A DNA stretch of 40,674 nucleotides, taken from a virus. Positions 4,141 through 40,575 of the stretch are shown here, in pieces; within the stretch, counting starts at the first letter, position 1; the number at the start of each line of letters is the position of its first letter. The stretch lies in IMG/VR virus record IMGVR_UViG_3300031963_000351, positions 1 through 40,674 of that record; one strand, given 5' to 3'. The notes beneath the pieces are model-generated. The model did no database searches. It saw only the letters and a list, made by a program, of their open reading frames with translations, and had not been told where the DNA came from. Made by a program: the position numbers and the translations under genes.

Positions 4141-4643
4141 TGACACCTAATAAACTCGATAAGAAAGCCGTTGACCTACTCATCCCGCGAATGAAGGATG
4201 AGTACAACGCATTTTACTTCTACCGTGCCGCCAGTAACTGGTGTCAGGGTGTTGGATTCTTCCAAGCCGCCAAGTTCTTTGCTGCCGAGTCGCAGGATGA
4301 GCTTGAACACGCAAAGAAGATTGAGGATTATATCACCGACTGGAATGTAATCCCAGAACTACCCACCGTGGCTCGTCCACAGCTTGAGTTCTCCAGCATC
4401 GTAGAGGTTTTGGAAGAGGCTTACAAGATCGAGTACGACTTGTACGAGGCTTACGAGGAGACTTCGAAGAAACTTTTCGAGATTGACCTGTGCGTGTTTG
4501 ACTTTTTACAACCACTGCGGTTGATACAGAACAAGTCTGTTGCTGAGTACAGCGACAAACTAAACCTGCTCGAAGGAGTAGAGGGTACTGACAAGTTCAA
4601 AGCACTGTTATTGGAAGAAAAGTTATTCCCCGTAAATGGCTAA
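4137..4643 (+). CDS. ferritin-like di-iron protein
   Basis: The 168-residue protein has the four-helix pattern of non-haem ferritins: an E-Y-x-A-x-Y helix at about 17-30, a second helix with E..ExxH (ESQDELEH) at about 48-58, and two further helices with acidic residues near YEAYEE and AEYSDK. Ferritins oxidise Fe(II) at a di-iron centre and store iron as a cage; Dps relatives also protect DNA. ATG 4137 is chosen over an upstream TTG because it gives the ATGA overlap with the preceding stop. The gene sits between two giant virion-type proteins, so it may be a virion component or an oxidative-stress gene. Fold call is good; role is inferred. Confidence 0.8.
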   Translation: MMTPNKLDKKAVDLLIPRMKDEYNAFYFYRAASNWCQGVGFFQAAKFFAAESQDELEHAKKIEDYITDWNVIPELPTVARPQLEFSSIVEVLEEAYKIEYDLYEAYEETSKKLFEIDLCVFDFLQPLRLIQNKSVAEYSDKLNLLEGVEGTDKFKALLLEEKLFPVNG

Positions 4644-7600
4644 TCCCTGTAAAATAACCTTTAAGAAGACCAAGGACGGAAAGGCGAAGGAGTACACCTA
4701 CGCTGAGTTCATGACTGCCCTGCAAGATGGATTGTTCCAAGAGCTTGTGGATGGCGGACTTTTGAATGCGAATAAGATTCCAGGAGAAAATCCGTTTGCG
4801 GCAGCTGCTCCAAAGGAACAGAAGGGTCCGTCGGTAAAGGAAAGGAAGACCATAACCACAATCAAGAATAATCCGGACATCTCTGACAAGGTAAAGAATG
4901 CGTTTTCATCTGATCGCATCAACTACAATCAGTTGCCTAACGATGTTTCTGTAGCAGAGGCCAACGCGATTATCGAATCACTTGGTATGGAAGAGGCAGA
5001 TAAATTGGCCAAGACTGGAAACAAGGATATGCCATCCGCGTTTAGAATTACCCTCGCTCAGATATTGATTAAGAAATACAACCAGGCGGGGGAATACGGA
5101 AAGGCTGTAGATGTTGCTCAAGACATCGCTGAACTTGCTACCGATTACGGTCAGGCGATTCAGGCTCTTTCTCTGTTCGCAAGACTTACTCCAGAAGGGG
5201 CATTGCTTGCAGCTACCCGCATGGTAAAGAAGAATAAGGACAGGGCGGTAAGCAAACATAAATCGAAGGCGACAGAGGTTAAAAACACGATCAACAAGAT
5301 TAACAAGGAGACCGCTAAACAAGTGGCTCAAGTGGCTCAAGCCGAGATGGAAAGGACCACAGCTAGTGTTAAGATGGTTGATCGTCCCAAGACTTATGGT
5401 AAAAAGAACAAACTAGTAACCTTAGAAAGATACGAGAAGGCTCGTGCCGCCCTAAAGGGTAAGATGTTCAGTGCGGTTGTTCCCCCTCCCGAACTCATTG
5501 AAATCGCTATGTTTCATATTGAGGCTGGGGCAAGGAATTTTGCCGACTTTGTGAAGCGAATGAAGGAGGATTTTGGAGAAAGGGCTAATGATTATTTACA
5601 GCCGGCTTATGATGAGGCGGTTTCAAGGCTTGATGCTTCTGAAAAGCAAAAGGCGATTACGTCTTCGGTGAATAAGTTTGGGAGATTGATCTCCGAGCAG
5701 TTGCCCCGTCAAGCAGATCGCAGGAGTAAGGTTGAAAAACTTCAAGAACTTGCCGATCAAATTGATGCGGAAACGGGGAACGATGCGTTCAACCAGATTC
5801 TTAATGATTACAAGGCCATCCTAGCCCAAGAGCAGGCGGATAACGATGCTGTAAAGGCTCAGAAGAAACTAGACAAACTCGTTGCCTTCATGGGGACTGA
5901 GGCTGGAATCAGAAAGGGACTCAAGGAAATGAATGTGAGAATAGGTGACTTGATTAAGCAGCACTATTCTGAGGTTGATGCGACAAAGGAAGACCTTATC
6001 AACAAACTCGTAAATGAGGCTGGATTGACTGGTGTTGAGGCCGATAACTTAGCTAACAAAATTCAGTCTGAGTTTGAGACCCTTGTTGCAGATAAAAAGA
6101 GAAAGGCCATCGAGAGATTAATGCCGAAAGGTCCACGCACAACTGCTCGTAAGGAGGCATTTGAAAAACTCGTAGAGGCATCCAACATTGGGGCCGTAGA
6201 CGAGGCGATGGTTAATGACGCAATAGCTGAGGCTCTTGGGGTTCCGTCAAGCCTAACGCCTGAACAGGCGGCTAAGATTACTGAACTGGCCAACGCGGTT
6301 CAAGAGGCAAAGACTGAGCGTGAAGAGCTACGTGCAATACAGAATTTACTATCTTATCAGCAGAACATTAATGGCATTTCTTGGTTTGAAGTAACTCAAG
6401 CCGTGTGGATGGCCAATATGTTGTCTGGATGGAAGACACAGACCATCAACATGATAGCCAACCTTTACAACACTGGAGCCCTGTTTGCTAATGCCGCCCT
6501 TCAGCGCAGCACAAGCAGAAGGTTATTAGTAAAGGGTTTGGCAGTTGGATGGAAACGCGGATTTTTTGAGGGTCTTGACAGCCTAAAAACGGGATACAGC
6601 CCGATTCGAGATAAGTCAGAAATCCCAAACATACTTGAGCGCGTAACATTTAAGGGCGGAAAGTTTAATCCAGTTAACTACGCCAAGTATGTTCGACGTC
6701 TTATGACGGCTGTTGATGTTTTATCCTTTGAGGGATTACGCCAGATGCGTTCATTCCAGATGGCGTACAAGAAGGCGGCTGCTGAAAACGAAGGATTTTC
6801 CAGCAAAGAATTAAGAGACAAAGCTCTTGAGATATTAAACAGGAAAGATGAGACATTGAATGCCGCAATTGATCAGGCAAAAGATGAAAGGGCAGTAAAA
6901 GAGGCGTTGCTCAAGGATGATTTTGAGGATGGAAAAATTACTAAGGAAGAGTTCATGAAGCAGATGGACTTTGCTAAAACTGACGAACGATTCCGAATCC
7001 ACGAATTGATTGAAGAAAAACGTGATAGTGATATAATGATTGAGGCAAAGGATTACGCTGCTCGCGGTACGTTCAATCACCCGCCAAACGGATTGCTTGG
7101 TCTTCTTTCTCAATACATGAACTCCGCGAAGAGGGAATGGCCAGCGTTGAATTTTGTAGTGCCATTCGTAAACGTAATCTCTAACGTAGCCAACGAAACG
7201 CTTAACTACACCCCTGTAGGTTTTGCTCGTGCAAGAAAGGAAGGTGGGACATTGACTGGACTCAAACCTATTCAGGATTGGGACGCTCAGAAGAGAACTG
7301 ATCTGATGATAAAGGCGACTATGGGAACAGGCCTTATGGCTTTGACCTACCTGTTGACTAAGTTAGACGATGATGACGAAGAACCAGTTCTTGAAATTAC
7401 GACTAATGGGTTCAATGACTTTGCTAAGAATAAAGAACTTATGGAGACCGGATGGCAACCATACTCTGTGAGGGTGAAGAATCCTGTTACCGGAGAGTAT
7501 TCGCCTTGGTTCTCTTACAAGACAAGCCCATTCATGCTTGGTCTTTCGTTCATTGGATCGCTTGGAGATGCTGAAAAGTATTTAGGGGAAGACATCTCTG

Positions 7601-8340
7601 CTGATGGATACAAGAAGATGTCTGTAGCGGCCACGGGGCTTACAAGGTCTTTCCTTGATCAAACATTCCTTTCATCTGGAGAAGACTTCTTATCAAGTGT
7701 GCTTGACTCAAGGGATAAGGACTTAGTTGACAATGTTCGTGATGCGGTTATTAAGACAGGAACTACTATTGTTGTTCCGGCCATCTACACTCAGACCGCT
7801 CAAAAGATTTCAGATATCATGGAAATCCCACAAAAAGAAATCCGTGATACGTACTTTGGTAGGGTGTTCAGGGACATCCCTGTTGCTCGGGATAGGTACA
7901 ATAATGTGATTAACGCCCTAGGAGATGAAGTTCCCTACGACTCTGACTTGCTAATTAGCTCTGACAAGGGTAAGCCAGAAGATAGGCTTTGGAACCTTGT
8001 TATTTCTAAAAAACAAACTATTGGCACACCTAAAGCGCCAGAAACGTATTTGGATAAGGATAATAACGAAGTTCAGTTAACCGAAGAGCAGACGTACAGT
8101 TTCATGAAAATCAGGGGTTCGTACATTAAAAAAGCGCTAGAAGAGAACTACGACGCCCTTAGCAAGTTAAGCAATGCCGATTTCTCCAAGTACTTAACAG
8201 GTTTAAAATCACAGGCTACAAGCATTGCTAAGTCTTCCTTCACCACAGAGCAAAAAGCGTTAGACAAGAAGATTGCTCGAGATCTAAAAGAACAAAAGTG
8301 GAAAATTGAAGATATACTAGAAAAAAACGAATCTGAATAA
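4636..8340 (+). CDS. second giant polyvalent/internal virion-type protein
   Basis: A 1,234-residue protein whose start overlaps the ferritin-like gene by 8 bases. The N-terminal half is charged and helical, with long K/E/A-rich coiled-coil-like stretches at about 190-560. Around residues 590-615 a segment (WMANMLSGWKTQ followed by N-rich residues) resembles the large polyvalent-protein-associated domain seen at the ends of such proteins. A hydrophobic segment near 890-905 precedes an acidic DDDDEE patch and could contact membrane. The C-terminus is again charged. No catalytic motif is recognised. Position and size suit an internal virion or ejection protein; this is inference. Confidence 0.75.
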   Translation: MANPCKITFKKTKDGKAKEYTYAEFMTALQDGLFQELVDGGLLNANKIPGENPFAAAAPKEQKGPSVKERKTITTIKNNPDISDKVKNAFSSDRINYNQLPNDVSVAEANAIIESLGMEEADKLAKTGNKDMPSAFRITLAQILIKKYNQAGEYGKAVDVAQDIAELATDYGQAIQALSLFARLTPEGALLAATRMVKKNKDRAVSKHKSKATEVKNTINKINKETAKQVAQVAQAEMERTTASVKMVDRPKTYGKKNKLVTLERYEKARAALKGKMFSAVVPPPELIEIAMFHIEAGARNFADFVKRMKEDFGERANDYLQPAYDEAVSRLDASEKQKAITSSVNKFGRLISEQLPRQADRRSKVEKLQELADQIDAETGNDAFNQILNDYKAILAQEQADNDAVKAQKKLDKLVAFMGTEAGIRKGLKEMNVRIGDLIKQHYSEVDATKEDLINKLVNEAGLTGVEADNLANKIQSEFETLVADKKRKAIERLMPKGPRTTARKEAFEKLVEASNIGAVDEAMVNDAIAEALGVPSSLTPEQAAKITELANAVQEAKTEREELRAIQNLLSYQQNINGISWFEVTQAVWMANMLSGWKTQTINMIANLYNTGALFANAALQRSTSRRLLVKGLAVGWKRGFFEGLDSLKTGYSPIRDKSEIPNILERVTFKGGKFNPVNYAKYVRRLMTAVDVLSFEGLRQMRSFQMAYKKAAAENEGFSSKELRDKALEILNRKDETLNAAIDQAKDERAVKEALLKDDFEDGKITKEEFMKQMDFAKTDERFRIHELIEEKRDSDIMIEAKDYAARGTFNHPPNGLLGLLSQYMNSAKREWPALNFVVPFVNVISNVANETLNYTPVGFARARKEGGTLTGLKPIQDWDAQKRTDLMIKATMGTGLMALTYLLTKLDDDDEEPVLEITTNGFNDFAKNKELMETGWQPYSVRVKNPVTGEYSPWFSYKTSPFMLGLSFIGSLGDAEKYLGEDISADGYKKMSVAATGLTRSFLDQTFLSSGEDFLSSVLDSRDKDLVDNVRDAVIKTGTTIVVPAIYTQTAQKISDIMEIPQKEIRDTYFGRVFRDIPVARDRYNNVINALGDEVPYDSDLLISSDKGKPEDRLWNLVISKKQTIGTPKAPETYLDKDNNEVQLTEEQTYSFMKIRGSYIKKALEENYDALSKLSNADFSKYLTGLKSQATSIAKSSFTTEQKALDKKIARDLKEQKWKIEDILEKNESE

Positions 8341-15118: not shown

Positions 15119-15148
15119 TTGGTATTTCAAACGAATGAACTATATTTG
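15119..15148 (+). promoter_or_regulatory. promoter TTG-N19-TATATTTG for tnpB
   Basis: TTG 15119-15121, 19 bases, TATATTTG 15141-15148, then 4 nt to a GTG at 15153. This geometry decides the start: an ATG at 15135 would lie upstream of the -7 box. Confidence 0.8.
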
Positions 15149-15152
15149 TTCC

Positions 15153-16235
15153 GTGAAACTGACATTGCAGATAAAATTGCTGCCTGATAATAAACAGGCA
15201 AATGCTCTCAAAGATACTTTGAAGGAGTGTAATACCGCCTGTAATGAAATTTCCAAACGGTGTTTTGAGAAAAAGATTTGGGGGCAATATAGAATCCATC
15301 ACGAAGTTTACTATTCTGTAAAATCCTCTTTCAATCTTTCCTCTCAAATGGTTGTAAGATGTATTTCTAAGGTTGCTGACAGCTACAAGTTGGATAAGAA
15401 GGTTCAACGAATATTTAAGCAGTTTGGCAGCATTGCTTATGATAGCAGGATTCTTACCTATAAACAATCCGAAGTATCTATTTGGACTGTTGAAGGTAGA
15501 TTGAAAATTCCTTTTGTTTGCCACAACCCCCAATACATTCCATACATTAAAGGCGAAGCGGATTTGGTTTACAAGAAGGGTAAATTTTACATTTTTCAAA
15601 CTGTTGAAGTTCCCGAAGAAGATATAAAAGATATTGAGGAATTTATCGGTTGCGATTTTGGACAAACAGATATTTGCACTCTGTCCGATGGCACTAATTT
15701 TAATTCTGAACAACTTAAAAAGATTCGTAAAAAATATTCTAAAGTAAGAGCTTCGGTTCAATCCAAAGGCACTAAAGGAAGCAAGAAACTTCTGAAACGG
15801 CTTGGCGGGAGAGAACGAAGATTCGCTACAATTTCTAACCATACAGTTAGTAAACAGATAGTAGCTAAAGCCAAAGAAGAAAATAAAGGCATAGCTATTG
15901 AGGATTTGAGTAAAATTAGATTTACCGCAAAGCCAAAAAGCAAAGCACAAAAGACAGAACTTAACCGTTGGAGCTTCTATCAGCTTCGTCGATTTCTGAC
16001 ATACAAAGCGTTGCTTAATGGCATTAAACTTGCGGTAATTCCACCTGCTTATACTTCTCAAACTTGCTCTGTTTGTTTGCATATTGGTAAAAGAGTAGCG
16101 AAAAAATTTACTTGTGAAAACTGCGGAAATATTTCTGATGCAGACGAAAACGCTGCTAAGAATATTTCTGCATGGGGTGTCGCTGTAAATACGCCCGAAA
16201 AGAATAATATGTTTTGCTCTCTGCATTCGTGTTAA
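15153..16235 (+). CDS. tnpB: TnpB RNA-guided nuclease (OrfB)
   Basis: A 360-residue protein, the usual TnpB size. The RuvC triad is intact: Asp168 in GCDFGQ, Glu250 in AIEDLSK and Asp331 in DADENAAKN. The zinc ribbon CSVC...CENC lies between the last two motifs. TnpB uses an omega RNA made from the 3' end of its own gene and the right end of the element to cleave DNA next to a target-adjacent motif, which helps keep the element. The start at GTG 15153 is set by the promoter and by the family N-terminus (KLTLQIKLLPD). A long open frame on the opposite strand is a shadow. Confidence 0.92.
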   Translation: MKLTLQIKLLPDNKQANALKDTLKECNTACNEISKRCFEKKIWGQYRIHHEVYYSVKSSFNLSSQMVVRCISKVADSYKLDKKVQRIFKQFGSIAYDSRILTYKQSEVSIWTVEGRLKIPFVCHNPQYIPYIKGEADLVYKKGKFYIFQTVEVPEEDIKDIEEFIGCDFGQTDICTLSDGTNFNSEQLKKIRKKYSKVRASVQSKGTKGSKKLLKRLGGRERRFATISNHTVSKQIVAKAKEENKGIAIEDLSKIRFTAKPKSKAQKTELNRWSFYQLRRFLTYKALLNGIKLAVIPPAYTSQTCSVCLHIGKRVAKKFTCENCGNISDADENAAKNISAWGVAVNTPEKNNMFCSLHSC

Positions 16236-20473: not shown

Positions 20474-20481
20474 TACATTTG
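20474..20481 (+). promoter_or_regulatory. -7 box TACATTTG of the structured leader
   Basis: Matches TAnnTTTG. No TTG is seen exactly 19-21 bases upstream. Transcription would start about 20486, just before the first stem-loop. Confidence 0.55.
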
Positions 20482-20485
20482 CTGC

Positions 20486-20583
20486 GTTCTCACATTGCAG
20501 TGTTTGACGGCAGTGCAATGCGGGATGTAAGATCAAAATCTTACCCTGAAATGCCCTTGGTCCGTCAAACAAGGGCTTTTTTT
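20486..20583 (+). ncRNA. structured leader or small RNA with kissing-loop potential (element A)
   Basis: Three stem-loops follow the -7 box. SL1 is CATTGCA/TGCAATG (20493-20499, 20514-20520) with a 14-nt loop. SL2 is GTAAGAT/ATCTTAC (20527-20533, 20538-20544). SL3 is the terminator. TGTTTGACGG (20501-20510, inside the SL1 loop) is perfectly complementary to CCGTCAAACA (20562-20571), of which 8 nt lie in the terminator loop. The gene at 20584 starts right after the U-tract. Confidence 0.65.
20553..20583 (+). terminator. intrinsic terminator directly before the 20584 start codon
   Basis: GCCCTTG/CAAGGGC (20553-20559, 20570-20576) with a 10-nt loop and seven T ending at 20583; ATG is at 20584. 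Expression of the gene therefore needs read-through or antitermination. Confidence 0.8.
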
Positions 20584-21303
20584 ATGCCTAAGCGCACAGA
20601 AATATCAAGTATAATCTCAAGCGACACACTGTTTTCGAACGTAGAAAACATAAAGTGGCTTGAGAGGTTCGTTGAGTTCAAGCGGGCATTCCCAAACTCC
20701 GTGATATATAAATACTCTGCCTACCGAGTTGAAAAACTTGGGAGGTTAAAAATGTCACGTAACACAATCAAGAACACGATAGACAAGTTCATCGAGCTTG
20801 GTTGGGCAACAAAGAATAAATCTCACCTCATTTTAATATCTAAAAACAAATTGTCTGCGCTCTATGGGGCAAAATCTCATAGAAAAATCAAATTAGACAC
20901 AACCCTATCCGTTAAGATTCAATTACAAGCAAAGGTGTTTAGCAGAGCCATCAATCGCTCTCGCTATGGTAAGTGCATGCAGGAAGTACAAGGTAAAAGC
21001 ATCAGGCGTAAATACGCTAAATCACTCAGTGGCACTCCGCAGGAACTTTCTAGCAAAAAGATTGGGAAAATTTTTAACTCATCACAAACTCAAGCTCTAA
21101 GGGTGGTAAGAAGTCTGGAGAACAATGGGTGGATCACTGTACAACGGCAAAAACTCAAACATTTGGGTAAGTGTTCAGCCAAGCAGTGGCAGTTCAGAAA
21201 GGCGTGGTGGAACAAGAAGGAAAGTGTCGACAACTGCTTTTGGCATTTGGGGCATTTCTTCCATCTTCCATCTAATTCTTACCTCATGAATAGCATACCC
21301 TAA
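20584..21303 (+). CDS. winged-helix/HTH DNA-binding protein candidate
   Basis: A 239-residue basic protein. Two helix-turn-helix-like segments are visible: KMSRNTIKNTIDKFIELGW at about 57-75 and a second with SSKKIGKIF...TQALRVVRSLENNGWI at about 158-183, both of the winged-helix look (recognition helix then N/LGW). The rest is rich in K, R and S. It could be a replication or regulatory protein. ATG 20584 sits on the U-tract of a terminator, suggesting control by attenuation. It is alone on the + strand within leftward operons. Confidence 0.7.
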   Translation: MPKRTEISSIISSDTLFSNVENIKWLERFVEFKRAFPNSVIYKYSAYRVEKLGRLKMSRNTIKNTIDKFIELGWATKNKSHLILISKNKLSALYGAKSHRKIKLDTTLSVKIQLQAKVFSRAINRSRYGKCMQEVQGKSIRRKYAKSLSGTPQELSSKKIGKIFNSSQTQALRVVRSLENNGWITVQRQKLKHLGKCSAKQWQFRKAWWNKKESVDNCFWHLGHFFHLPSNSYLMNSIP

Positions 21304-37519: not shown

Positions 37520-39460
37520 TTATTCCCAGGCTTCCTTGTACCCGTTTGGGTGCGCTATGTCTTCGTTCCATTCTTTTGCTTCTTTTGAATCCGTCCAGTT
37601 TCTGTTAGGACTTACTGCGCTTGGTGTTTCTTGCTTAATTTCAATCTGGACAGCCCTCCCGTCTATTGCCTGTTGAAGGTAGTCTACACCGTCAAAGGTA
37701 AACCTCCTCGTGTTCCTCTGTAGTTGAAATTCAAACGACCCCTTTAGTCCAACTATCTTCTGTCTTCTGATCTTCTTACTGTGAAACTCGCACACGGGGC
37801 TGTCTGGGGCTGTCTGAGCGAATGGACGGTGGTATATGATGATGTTATCCGCCTTGTTGTTCCACATCGCACCATCTGCAAGGTCAAACACCTCTGGACA
37901 AGGATAATTCCCATCCTCTCCTTTTCTCATTTTGTGCGGGTGAACCACGATGTCGAAGTACACGTTGTTCTTCCTCGCAAACCGTGTGCAGTCAGAAAGG
38001 AAAGTTTCGAGGTACTTGTCGCTGCGTCCCGCACCCTTTGAGTAATCGTTTGCCATTTGGTTGAACGGATCAATAACCACCCTGTCAACTCCGTGCTTGA
38101 TGATCAGGCTCAGGAACACCTCCTTCACGTAATCTGGTGTGGGGGCTACGTTCTTCGGGTACACCATGAAAATATGGTCTCCAATCATCTTGTACACCTT
38201 CATGTACGCATCGTATGATGGGCGTGTTGGGTTACTTGGTGTGCAGTCTCTCCCAAAGTAAATCTCTACAAGGTCGTGGTAGAACTGTTCGGCAGGCAGT
38301 TCCTCAGGAGTAAAGATGGCAACCCTCTCCCCAAACCTAACCATACGCATTATCATCTCCCACTTCATGAATGATGACTTTCCGTAGTTTCCTATTCCGG
38401 AAACAATTGTTAATTCGCCTTTAACTCTTTTGAAGTGCCTATCGAGCAATGGGACGCCGACGGGCATTGCTGCTTGATAACCCTTGAGGTAAATTTCCCC
38501 AGCCCTATCCATCACCTCCTCGGCATAGATTACGTCCTCCTTAGACATTTCATCGAGGTCCTCTTCGGTTAGCTCAATCTTAACCTCCTTGTGGCTACTC
38601 TTTGTAACTAACTGATCCTTAGTGAACTCGGCAGTATTCCACTGGCTCATGTTCGCCCTGTACGCACTACGGATGGCCTGGCGACACTCCTTCTGACTGA
38701 AGCTTGCATCAGGAACGACGTAGGTCATCATCATGCTGTAGCACGTCTCCTCGAGCATCCCGAACCTACAGCAGCTTGCGGCCAGCTTAAAAACGAAGTG
38801 ATTCCTTTCCCCCTCACGGAACGCATCCCCCTTGGATGTCATCCACGTCAGCAGGTTGTTGAATATCTTGTCGTCATCGTTAATCGTTTCAGTGGTTGTC
38901 TGTTGGGGCAACCTTCTATCGGCCTTTTTTACAGGCAGTTTGTTGTACGTCTCGGCGTTCTCGTTGTACCAAAGATTGGGATCATACGACTCAAAGCAGA
39001 GTCGGGACAGGTTCTTTCCGGTCTTGTCAATGTCTGGAAAGTCATTCATTAAGGCCTCAAAGTGCTCTTTGTGCATGGTTTTCCATTCAATTTGGACGAG
39101 CGCCTTCAATCCCTTGCCAGATGGGGAAGTCCAAACAGCTGTTATGTACCCTAAAGAGCACAGTTCTCTGCGTTTTTCGGCCATGTCTGACACGTTATCG
39201 AAGTCCAAAACAATGTACCCGGAATGTTCGACAAGTTCAGAGTCCTTTCGCTTTGAGAACGTGCCGCTGAAACAAACGGCAGGGAGTTTCTTTTTTAACT
39301 CGTCCGCCTCCTTCTTGGTTTTTGCTTGCCTCGCCTTGTTAACAAGCTCCTTTGACTTCCCATTCCTAATTCGTTCAAGTGCGCCCAACACACTAATTGT
39401 GTGTCCCTGCAGGTCGTTGAAGTCTTGGTAGATTGATACTTTACCATCTATTGGTCTCAT
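37520..39460 (-). CDS. primase-helicase fusion (VirE-N/BT4734-like + DnaB-like)
   Basis: A 646-residue protein. Residues ~60-170 hold the VirE N-terminal/BT4734 pattern (LPAVCFSGTF, HSGYIVLDFDN, PSGKGLKALV, DIDKTGKNLSRLCFESYDP), a primase-type fold of Bacteroidota phages and elements. A linker follows, then a RecA-like SF4 helicase: Walker A GIGNYGKSS near 353-361 and Walker B RVVIDPFN near 460, then a KADNIIIY arginine-finger-like region. It would prime and unwind DNA at the fork. It overlaps the initiator gene by 20 nt. Confidence 0.85.
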   Translation of the reverse strand: MRPIDGKVSIYQDFNDLQGHTISVLGALERIRNGKSKELVNKARQAKTKKEADELKKKLPAVCFSGTFSKRKDSELVEHSGYIVLDFDNVSDMAEKRRELCSLGYITAVWTSPSGKGLKALVQIEWKTMHKEHFEALMNDFPDIDKTGKNLSRLCFESYDPNLWYNENAETYNKLPVKKADRRLPQQTTTETINDDDKIFNNLLTWMTSKGDAFREGERNHFVFKLAASCCRFGMLEETCYSMMMTYVVPDASFSQKECRQAIRSAYRANMSQWNTAEFTKDQLVTKSSHKEVKIELTEEDLDEMSKEDVIYAEEVMDRAGEIYLKGYQAAMPVGVPLLDRHFKRVKGELTIVSGIGNYGKSSFMKWEMIMRMVRFGERVAIFTPEELPAEQFYHDLVEIYFGRDCTPSNPTRPSYDAYMKVYKMIGDHIFMVYPKNVAPTPDYVKEVFLSLIIKHGVDRVVIDPFNQMANDYSKGAGRSDKYLETFLSDCTRFARKNNVYFDIVVHPHKMRKGEDGNYPCPEVFDLADGAMWNNKADNIIIYHRPFAQTAPDSPVCEFHSKKIRRQKIVGLKGSFEFQLQRNTRRFTFDGVDYLQQAIDGRAVQIEIKQETPSAVSPNRNWTDSKEAKEWNEDIAHPNGYKEAWE

Positions 39461-40148
39461 CTGTAGTAGGTGTTTGTTTTATCGTTTGTTTTGTTTGTGT
39501 TTCATCCTCCCATCTCCTGTCGCGAAGGTATCGCACAGGATCCTTCCAGTACTTGCGTTCGCGCCCCGATTTGTGGTTCCCCATGCACTCCACGGCAAGT
39601 ATGCGATCTTTTTCATGCAGTTTGTTCCATGCAGCTTCTGCTTGTTTCTTGTCCACTTTCTTGTCGTAAGCCATCCAAAACTGCTCGAAAGAATACTTAT
39701 TTTCTTCTTTTACTTTATTCTTTTTATTATGTGAGCATTCCTGAGCAGGGGTATGCTCATTTTTGAGCAGGGGGTATGCAGGTTTTTGAGCAGGGGTATG
39801 CTCAAAAAAATCATCTTCCTCATTTTCAGACACTGGTATCTCGGGGGTAACTGTTCTGCTTAAAATGTCGGCATCTGGATTTATAGTTAAACATCTAACC
39901 TCAACCTCATTTCTGGTATTGAGTTTCACAATTCTCCCCAAAACACCTTTCTGTTCGAGATCAGCAATTATCCGTCTCACACTGTGCTTGGATATCCCAA
40001 GGCATTCACCCAGATAATGATTTGAGGCAAAGCAATAGCCCCTGATGTTTGATAAATTCGAAATAACCCCTATAAGGAGTTTTTCCGTGGATGATAATTC
40101 CTTGCTAAGCAACACACTTGCAGGGATAATTGAATATTGATTGTGCAT
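39441..40148 (-). CDS. HTH replication initiator with internal iterons
   Basis: From ATG 40148 (MHNQYSIIP) a 235-residue protein. The N-terminus (SSTEKLLIGVISNL, LGISKHSVRRIIADLEQKGVL) is a winged HTH of the DnaD/replication-protein type. The C-terminus (FEQFWMAYDKKVDKKQAEAAWNKL and YWKDPVRYLRDRRWEDE) is the helicase-loader-like domain common to phage replication proteins. The middle is disordered and encoded by repeated DNA (39742-39804). It overlaps the primase-helicase. A terminator leader lies directly before the start. A longer start at 40178 would begin inside the terminator. Confidence 0.78.
   Translation of the reverse strand: MHNQYSIIPASVLLSKELSSTEKLLIGVISNLSNIRGYCFASNHYLGECLGISKHSVRRIIADLEQKGVLGRIVKLNTRNEVEVRCLTINPDADILSRTVTPEIPVSENEEDDFFEHTPAQKPAYPLLKNEHTPAQECSHNKKNKVKEENKYSFEQFWMAYDKKVDKKQAEAAWNKLHEKDRILAVECMGNHKSGRERKYWKDPVRYLRDRRWEDETQTKQTIKQTPTTDETNRW
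39742..39804. repeat. three iterons inside the initiator gene
   Basis: TGAGCAGGGGTATGCTCA at 39742-39759 and 39787-39804, and a near copy TGAGCAGGGGGTATGCA at 39764-39780, spaced 22 and 23 bp. The outer copies have palindromic arms TGAGCA/TGCTCA. The spacing is not a multiple of three, so the repeats are read in different frames and are conserved as DNA. An A+T-rich stretch at about 39700-39732 adjoins them. Confidence 0.8.
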
Positions 40149-40149
40149 G

Positions 40150-40268
40150 ATAAAATAAAAAAGCCCCGTGTAAGGCACCGGGGCTTGGGTTGGTCAAACT
40201 TGCGTTCAACTTGCCAAACCCTTCTTTTCGGCCTTACTCAAAAAGAAGGAATTGGCACAAATACATCG
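40150..40268 (-). ncRNA. structured leader or small RNA with kissing-loop potential (element B)
   Basis: After TTG-N19-TATCTTTG, the first stem-loop SL1 (40257-40212: TGCCAA/TTGGCA plus CCTTCTTTT/AAAAGAAGG) has a 12-nt loop containing GTAAGGC. The terminator loop contains GCCTTAC, its exact complement. The initiator ATG is at 40148, just after the U-tract. Confidence 0.65.
40153..40186 (-). terminator. intrinsic terminator directly before the initiator start codon
   Basis: AAGCCCCG/CGGGGCTT, 8 bp, 10-nt loop, then TTTTATTTT on the - strand (40186-40153). Confidence 0.8.
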
Positions 40269-40298
40269 CAAAGATAATCCTGTTTTTTCACTTGTCAA
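40269..40298 (-). promoter_or_regulatory. promoter TTG-N19-TATCTTTG
   Basis: TTG (40298-40296, within TTGACA), 19 bases, TATCTTTG (40276-40269) on the - strand. Divergent from the promoter at 40326. Confidence 0.8.
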
Positions 40299-40325: not shown

Positions 40326-40355
40326 TTGACACAGTGCATATTATTTGTATATTTG
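40326..40355 (+). promoter_or_regulatory. promoter TTG-N19-TATATTTG, leaderless
   Basis: TTGACA 40326-40331 with TATATTTG 40348-40355 (TTG to -7 spacing 19), then 4 nt to ATG 40360. The 9-mer TTTACTCAT upstream (40302-40310) is inverted relative to the start region (40360-40368). Confidence 0.8.
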
Positions 40356-40359
40356 CCGC

Positions 40360-40575
40360 ATGAGTAAACTTATTCCGCCAGACCACACGGTCTTTGTAAA
40401 CATAGAATCGCGCTCAAAGGGGAGCGTGAAGGCTGTGATAACCGATGTTGGGAGCGGCGTTGACTATGAGGTTGGTCAGCGCGTCGGCATTATTGGAAAG
40501 ATAGACAACCTTGAAATACAGGGGGACTCAAGGTTCTCCGTTCACGAAAAATACATTGCGTTTTTATATGAGTAA
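40360..40575 (+). CDS. GroES-like small protein
   Basis: From ATG 40360, set by the promoter, 71 residues: KGSVKAVITDVGSGVDYEVGQRVGII, then EKYIAFLYE. The order, Gly turn, VxxVGxGV, VGxxV, final EKYI.A.., is that of GroES-type co-chaperonins, but the mobile loop is short. A GroES partner or another small barrel is possible. It overlaps the next gene by 8 nt. Confidence 0.45.
   Translation: MSKLIPPDHTVFVNIESRSKGSVKAVITDVGSGVDYEVGQRVGIIGKIDNLEIQGDSRFSVHEKYIAFLYE

Follow-up and report, generated by a model that had tools for sequence, protein, structure and literature searches.

The initiator gene of an uncultured phage is preceded by a structured leader, element B, in the stretch of DNA that was analysed (IMG/VR record IMGVR_UViG_3300031963_000351, positions 1 to 40,674; 40,674 nucleotides, hereafter the window). 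Element B spans 40298-40157 (minus strand) and consists of a promoter, a first hairpin (SL1), a second hairpin (SL2) and an intrinsic terminator with a U tract. The promoter (40298..40269, minus strand) is TTG-N19-TATCTTTG, with TTG at 40298-40296, a 19-nt spacer and TATCTTTG at 40276-40269, and we take it to be of the Bacteroidota type. TTG-N17-23-TAnnTTTG is present in 32/37 distinct B elements. SL1 (40257..40212, minus strand) carries GTAAGGC in its loop (40237-40231). SL2, a spacer hairpin, was found in the fold of the element (40210..40193, minus strand), and the spacer forms a single hairpin by minimum free energy in 36/36 B relatives. The terminator and its U tract occupy 40186..40157 (minus strand); its hairpin (40186-40161) has a 10-nt loop, GTGCCTTACA, in which GCCTTAC (40176-40170) is complementary to GTAAGGC of the SL1 loop. 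The fold of the leader has z = -4.76. The initiator (39441..40148, minus strand; HTH_36, E = 2.7e-10; phrog_270, replication initiation, E = 8e-30) begins with its ATG at 40148, 12 nt past the terminator stem. A first-pass annotation of this DNA had described the promoter, SL1 with GTAAGGC, the 10-nt terminator loop with GCCTTAC and the initiator ATG behind it, and all of these were confirmed on the minus strand; SL2 was missing from that description. The next gene encodes a primase/helicase (37520..39460, minus strand; BT4734-like N terminus; phrog_18375) in the leftward gene cluster behind B. Since this gene follows on the same strand, B stands at the head of leftward replication genes, a position in line with a role in setting replication timing or copy number.

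B has a G+C-rich hairpin and a U tract between promoter and gene, as an attenuator has. Judged by the promoter motif, the RNA should start near SL1. Leader-peptide attenuation, which depends on a ribosome, was rejected, since a closed ATG ORF of at least 4 codons, counted from 3 nt after the -7 box, occurs in the leader of 0/53 distinct elements. In the window alone, a 10-codon ORF that ends in SL1 would start at an ATG 2 nt downstream of the -7 box of B; this ATG falls outside the 53-element count and lies upstream of the probable transcription start. Inspection by eye also revealed an inverted repeat, AACC-TCGCG-TGGTT, between the -33 and -7 boxes of many B relatives (e.g., L061, ~6620-6655), which is absent from the window and is possibly a candidate operator. 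On the plus strand, a promoter-like sequence (TTGACA-16-TATATT, 40326-40353) lies divergent and back to back with the B promoter, and precedes a 71-aa ORF at 40360.

Both strands of the window were scanned for a hairpin loop complementary over at least 7 bases to the loop of a following terminator. The scan found two sites, B and a second element, A, at 20488-20576 on the plus strand, of which the scan reported 20493-20576. Complementary SL1 and terminator loops in both elements had been proposed in the first-pass annotation, and a check against shuffled sequence had been set beforehand. The whole-window scan bears the proposal out, and random complementarity does not arise at a similar rate, as the mean over 739 dinucleotide shuffles is 0.032 sites versus the 2 found. 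When only the loop letters were shuffled, 7 bp for B was reached in 467/200,000 and 8 bp for A in 112/200,000. The shuffles, together with the relatives described below, rule out a chance origin of the loop complementarity. Pairing of whole arms rather than loops was dismissed by eye.

All features of element A lie on the plus strand. Its likely promoter has the -7 element TACATTTG at 20474..20481, and the promoter motif is matched in 15/16 distinct A elements. SL1 (20488..20525), which shows covariation, has the loop TTTGACGG at 20503-20510, and the terminator with its U tract (20553..20583) has the loop CCGTCAAA at 20562-20569. SL2 (20527..20544) changed on both sides in 3/5 pairs, with 82.5% of cells paired (16 rows). 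Going by its sequence, A would be a second such device, built to the plan of B at another site in the phage. The gene after A (20584..21303, 239 aa) resembles MarR weakly, at a score under the Pfam cut-off, and matches phrog_270 (E = 0.0013). An HTH gene had been expected next in this plan. This is true of B and of A in the window, but not of A generally: an HTH gene lies downstream in 2 of the 16 distinct A elements, an ORF of 82-84 aa in 3, and an ORF of at least 41 aa beginning MLD in 11. The last starts 68-72 nt on and is putatively coding (11/16 distinct A elements). A block 60-130 nt downstream of A is conserved, for instance in L088, L092 and L250, with a putative small protein beginning MLD. 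Because 11/16 elements are followed only by this uncertain ORF, it is not evident that A would attenuate a gene behind it.

A loop-loop (kissing) contact could also act by stabilising a large-loop terminator or 3' end, so that the product would be a stable stand-alone small RNA and the downstream ATG would be incidental. The long U tracts behind the A terminators and the lack of a gene directly behind 11/16 distinct A elements are in line with this explanation, as is the fact that loops of 10 nt are long for plain terminators. Nevertheless, we think it rather unlikely, as in B relatives the initiator ATG lies only 7-14 nt behind the terminator stem. Data on the guanidine-IV RNA also point the opposite way (PMC11611296).

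Relatives were collected from IMG/VR with the initiator, the B promoter, the A SL1 stem and model R2 of B, in which the contact is not modelled; none of these searches requires the contact, and the sets overlap. The contact is present in 30/31 initiator relatives, and the exception, L028, starts inside the gene. Of 37 stretches retrieved with the B promoter, 36 have the contact and the other (L045) ends inside the leader, and the search by the A SL1 stem gave it in 17/17. In a wider initiator search, 80/112 relatives were kept and the contact was found in 63/80. The other 17 are 2 that start inside the gene and 15 distant relatives, and model R2 found a leader in none of these 17. In these collections, L028, L125 and L163 begin within the gene and L045 ends within the leader. 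L024, L027, L029, L142 and L143 all have the contact. Model R2 matched 13/23 further records, all of them already known as contact carriers. Furthermore, a contact scan of 1.0 Mb, made up of pieces from 16 related phage records, gave 21 strict hits, all of them A or B; blastn with known elements found B in 15/16 and A in 12/16 of the related phage records. In G001, the spacing between A and B is as in the window and B occurs close to each end, an arrangement suggestive of a circular genome of ~65.6 kb.

A relaxed scan yielded 37 distinct B and 16 distinct A elements (53 in total). It requires at least 6 complementary letters, so pairing among the 53 is partly built in, and 5/16 A rows (L180, L186, L190, L222 and L226) came solely from contact-requiring scans. 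Relaxed-scan matches scoring 34 and 30 were left out, being neither A nor B. A covariance model of A in which the loops are unpaired recovered a divergent element in G026 (E = 5.8e-7). Its loops, GCGCAG and CTGCGC, are a previously unseen pair, for which, taken alone, chance pairing was reached in 1,453/200,000. The first-pass annotation had proposed a real RNA class and had asked for a search among relatives; the relatives strongly support such a class, with a conserved contact between the SL1 loop and the terminator loop. The family is so far known only from one group of uncultured IMG/VR phages. A DNA match in isolate phages was not found, with 12 isolate records carrying distant initiators, and a scan of parts of 6 isolate Bacteroidota phages (269 kb) gave 0 matches. 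In genome contigs, 268 stretches fit a short pattern of the initiator and none was a relative. The window also encodes a TnpB/OrfB_IS605-like protein (15135-16235, plus strand; Cas12f1-like_TNB, E = 2.7e-22), for which one relative, 45% identical, was found in genome contigs, in an Anaerolineaceae bin. A 1234-aa protein (4636-8340, plus strand) matches a DarB-like antirestriction protein (phrog_10089, E = 4.9e-14).

The contact letters covary in both families. In A (16 rows), 97.3% of cells in the kissing helix are paired and 7/10 pairs changed on both sides. In B (36 rows), all 7 pairs of the kissing core are formed in 36/36 and 3 changed on both sides, and of the outer contact pairs, 24/107 fails in 9/36 rows and 25/106 in 12/36. 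B of the window was omitted from this alignment (A4), in which its loops align 2 columns off, and was counted by hand. In SL1 of B, 5/15 pairs changed on both sides among the 36 relatives. The covariation score of the whole structure was reached by 0/500 shuffles for A and for B, and slid structures drop to 34-50% paired. One measure for B, the number of further pair types, is not above shuffles (496/500 reach its value). The pairing letters differ between phages and yet change together, which indicates that the contact between SL1 and the terminator matters. Moreover, in all rows of the two main types (35/35), the letters in B loop columns 28 and 30 go with those in terminator columns 92, 101, 103 and 111 without exception, and the other variable B columns tested reach at most 0.47 of full association. 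This linkage means that the two loop partners of B are co-inherited over ~65 nt, unlike the spacer between them.

B has four loop types (GAGCAAC, GAACCAC, GAGTCAC and GTAAGGC), A at least nine. Between cognate loops, pairing extends over 6-10 bp in A (10 distinct loop pairs) and 7-9 bp in B (22 distinct), and A loops pair with B loops over at most 6 bp. Within a family, non-cognate loops pair over at least 7 bp in 9/90 combinations for A and 182/462 for B; such pairing is frequent because loop types recur. Among the relatives that were examined, B is followed by an initiator gene, whose N-terminal domain is of three different kinds. It was observed in L042-L077 that these three N-terminal regions are fused to one conserved C-terminal domain (FEQFW...RRWEDE). 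Instead of an RNA contact, the loop letters might form an inverted repeat in the DNA to which the initiator or a repressor binds. Complementary loops are an inverted repeat by definition, and replication initiators often bind close to their own gene. This reading is very improbable, however, as the repeats are located in hairpin loops in both families, the same B loop types accompany all three N-terminal domains, which speaks against a binding site of the initiator in the DNA, and closely similar proteins carry different types. The position in hairpin loops and the independence from the initiator N terminus led us to reject a protein operator.

Are A and B related to each other? The first-pass annotation had regarded them as unrelated in sequence and as two independent cases of one plan. 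The shared plan stands. The lack of relationship is less secure, as there is some likeness between them, at scores that reverse strands also reach. Model R1 of A matched B of the window with E = 0.0033 in a search that found 1/7 B elements, and a second search found 2/6 (E < 0.001). Model R2, trained without the window, gave E = 2e-5 for B of the window and only E = 0.18 for A of the window; it found none of the other A elements searched. Reverse strands of B elements reach E = 1.4e-5, so these cross-model scores prove little. In addition, the terminator of one A element (L222, ~2666-2700) resembles the B terminator of the window (40157-40190; blastn E = 1.3e-4), which perhaps reflects an exchange between the two loci. 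A common origin of A and B is plausible.

Does the contact have a partner outside the element? Outside matches to the loops number 38 and 39 for A versus 49 expected, and 78 and 76 for B versus 75.5, and none of the 231 outside matches in pieces of 16 records covaries with the loops. A third partner site in the phage was rejected, since the matches are near or below expectation and none covaries. Together with the lack of a counted leader ORF, this places the contact within the element, either in cis or between copies.

For a contact in cis, a coarse model was used, with 6 A per nucleotide and the rise of an A-form helix as assumptions. Its mean lengths are ~77-80 A for the rod that SL1, the kissing helix and the terminator make up and, for the linker, ~83-87 A when SL2 is folded or ~171-184 A when it is open. 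The linker estimate is shorter than the rod in 8/16 A and 11/36 B elements, a borderline and model-dependent result. In guanidine-IV RNAs, a contact with the terminator loop has been proposed, with single-molecule support, to oppose the full terminator, with the linker as the limiting factor (PMC7736828, PMC11611296, PMC9788692). By this likeness, we favour kissing as the read-through state with moderate confidence. B may well be a kissing-controlled transcription attenuator of the replication operon in which kissing in cis lets polymerase through. The attenuator, SL1-SL2-terminator, would measure ~100 nt and open the replication gene cluster. Just ahead of the initiator ATG, RNA polymerase would run into the terminator, and how often it gets past would depend on the contact between the loops. 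Cis kissing would most likely oppose the full terminator stem, because a linker shortened by SL2 barely spans the kissing rod. Where the contact is lost, a terminated RNA of ~100 nt would be made and no initiator. The arrangement suggests that phage replication has a switch which works without protein.

Feedback by the RNA in trans is possible as well. The terminated ~100-nt RNA from other copies of the genome might pair with the nascent SL1 or terminator loop and force termination, which would control copy number and make phages of the same loop type incompatible; we regard this antisense scheme as a tentative alternative. The two main B types occupy 16 and 15 of 32 rows and are scattered over the initiator tree, which fits the scheme, and feedback with incompatibility would explain loop types that are balanced and orthogonal. 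On this tree the B types require 12 changes versus a shuffled mean of 11.6, with at least 5 forced by well-supported branches. The tree has 180 columns and many open forks, and 5/37 B rows without the C-terminal stretch were left out, including the sole GAGTCAC row. Recombination alone could scatter the types, however. The SL1 loops of A are more divergent than their own stems, with a mean pairwise difference of 0.284 versus 0.062 in 14/16 rows and 0.347 versus 0.155 in all 16, but the SL2 stem of A varies about as fast as the loop (0.259), and the B loop is no more variable than its stem (0.154 versus 0.176). P4 CI RNA is a precedent, as a leader RNA that shuts off replication genes by termination (PMC4825925). 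There is no sign of lysogeny or plasmid life, which weighs against the scheme: integrase was found in 0/23 records and a resolvase or ParA-type ATPase in 0/14, many records being fragments. A more elaborate and somewhat more doubtful scheme joins the two modes into an allelic recognition code without protein. Kissing in cis would let polymerase through, and RNA of a sister genome would take the loops in trans without linker strain and cause termination. The RNA would then sense copy number, phages of the same type would shut off each other's replication, frequency-dependent selection would keep the types balanced, and A and B would be orthogonal channels.

These uncultured phages carry an RNA family that has no Rfam match and was not met in the literature searched, and at the head of the replication genes its loop and terminator kiss through changing letters. 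The elements would be natural attenuators that are orthogonal by loop type, with a code that can be read and swapped. If the contact acts in trans, they would make phages that lack known lysogeny genes incompatible by means of RNA alone. In the literature searched, which covered few subscription papers, no kissing terminator loop was found in phages. No Rfam match at gathering scores was obtained in the window, L088, L061 or L092, and a known Rfam family was rejected, the best matches being sub-threshold (E = 0.07-0.39).

RNA-RNA contacts limit expression of the replication initiator in pT181-type plasmids, and the antisense RNAs of plasmids of the pMV158 and pT181 types come from the opposite strand. 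In A and B, unlike these, both pairing partners lie in one transcript. RNAII of pMV158 is likewise reported to limit initiator expression by RNA-RNA contact (PMC4485353).

Among phages, complementary segments within a leader RNA have precedents. One is the c4 antisense RNA of P1/P7. The c4 RNA is listed as Rfam family RF01695 in PMC2864571, and the window, L088, L061 and L092 gave no match to it, on the assumption that the Rfam set used holds the c4 model. The other is P4 CI RNA, a phage leader RNA with complementary segments in which premature termination controls replication genes; a processed RNA is reported to pair with seqA and seqC (PMC4825925). In A and B, by contrast, SL1 pairs with the loop of the terminator. 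Outside target sites, which c4 and P4 CI have, would be a covarying third site, and none stood out among the outside matches counted above.

The nearest known plan is that of guanidine-IV (mepA/GGAM-1) and its Gd4v variant, in which a 5' hairpin loop contacts the terminator loop, a U tract and a start codon follow, and contact and full terminator compete via a short linker (PMC7736828, PMC11611296, PMC9788692). A and B have the same order, with a hairpin loop that pairs with the terminator loop, a U tract and a start codon close behind (as defined in PMC7736828 and PMC9788692), and this order is what favours reading them as a metabolite riboswitch of the guanidine-IV kind. Such a riboswitch is nevertheless highly unlikely. 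The guanidine-IV contact is conserved and binds ligand, but that of A and B is 6-10 bp long, variable and covarying, as the numbers of loop types show. Replication genes, with the initiator first, lie behind B in place of guanidine transporters or related genes, and no Rfam match was obtained, although the Rfam set possibly lacks a guanidine-IV model. A and B further differ from guanidine-IV in having an additional SL2 in the linker and in showing no conserved ligand pocket. They would show that the guanidine-IV architecture is workable without a ligand.
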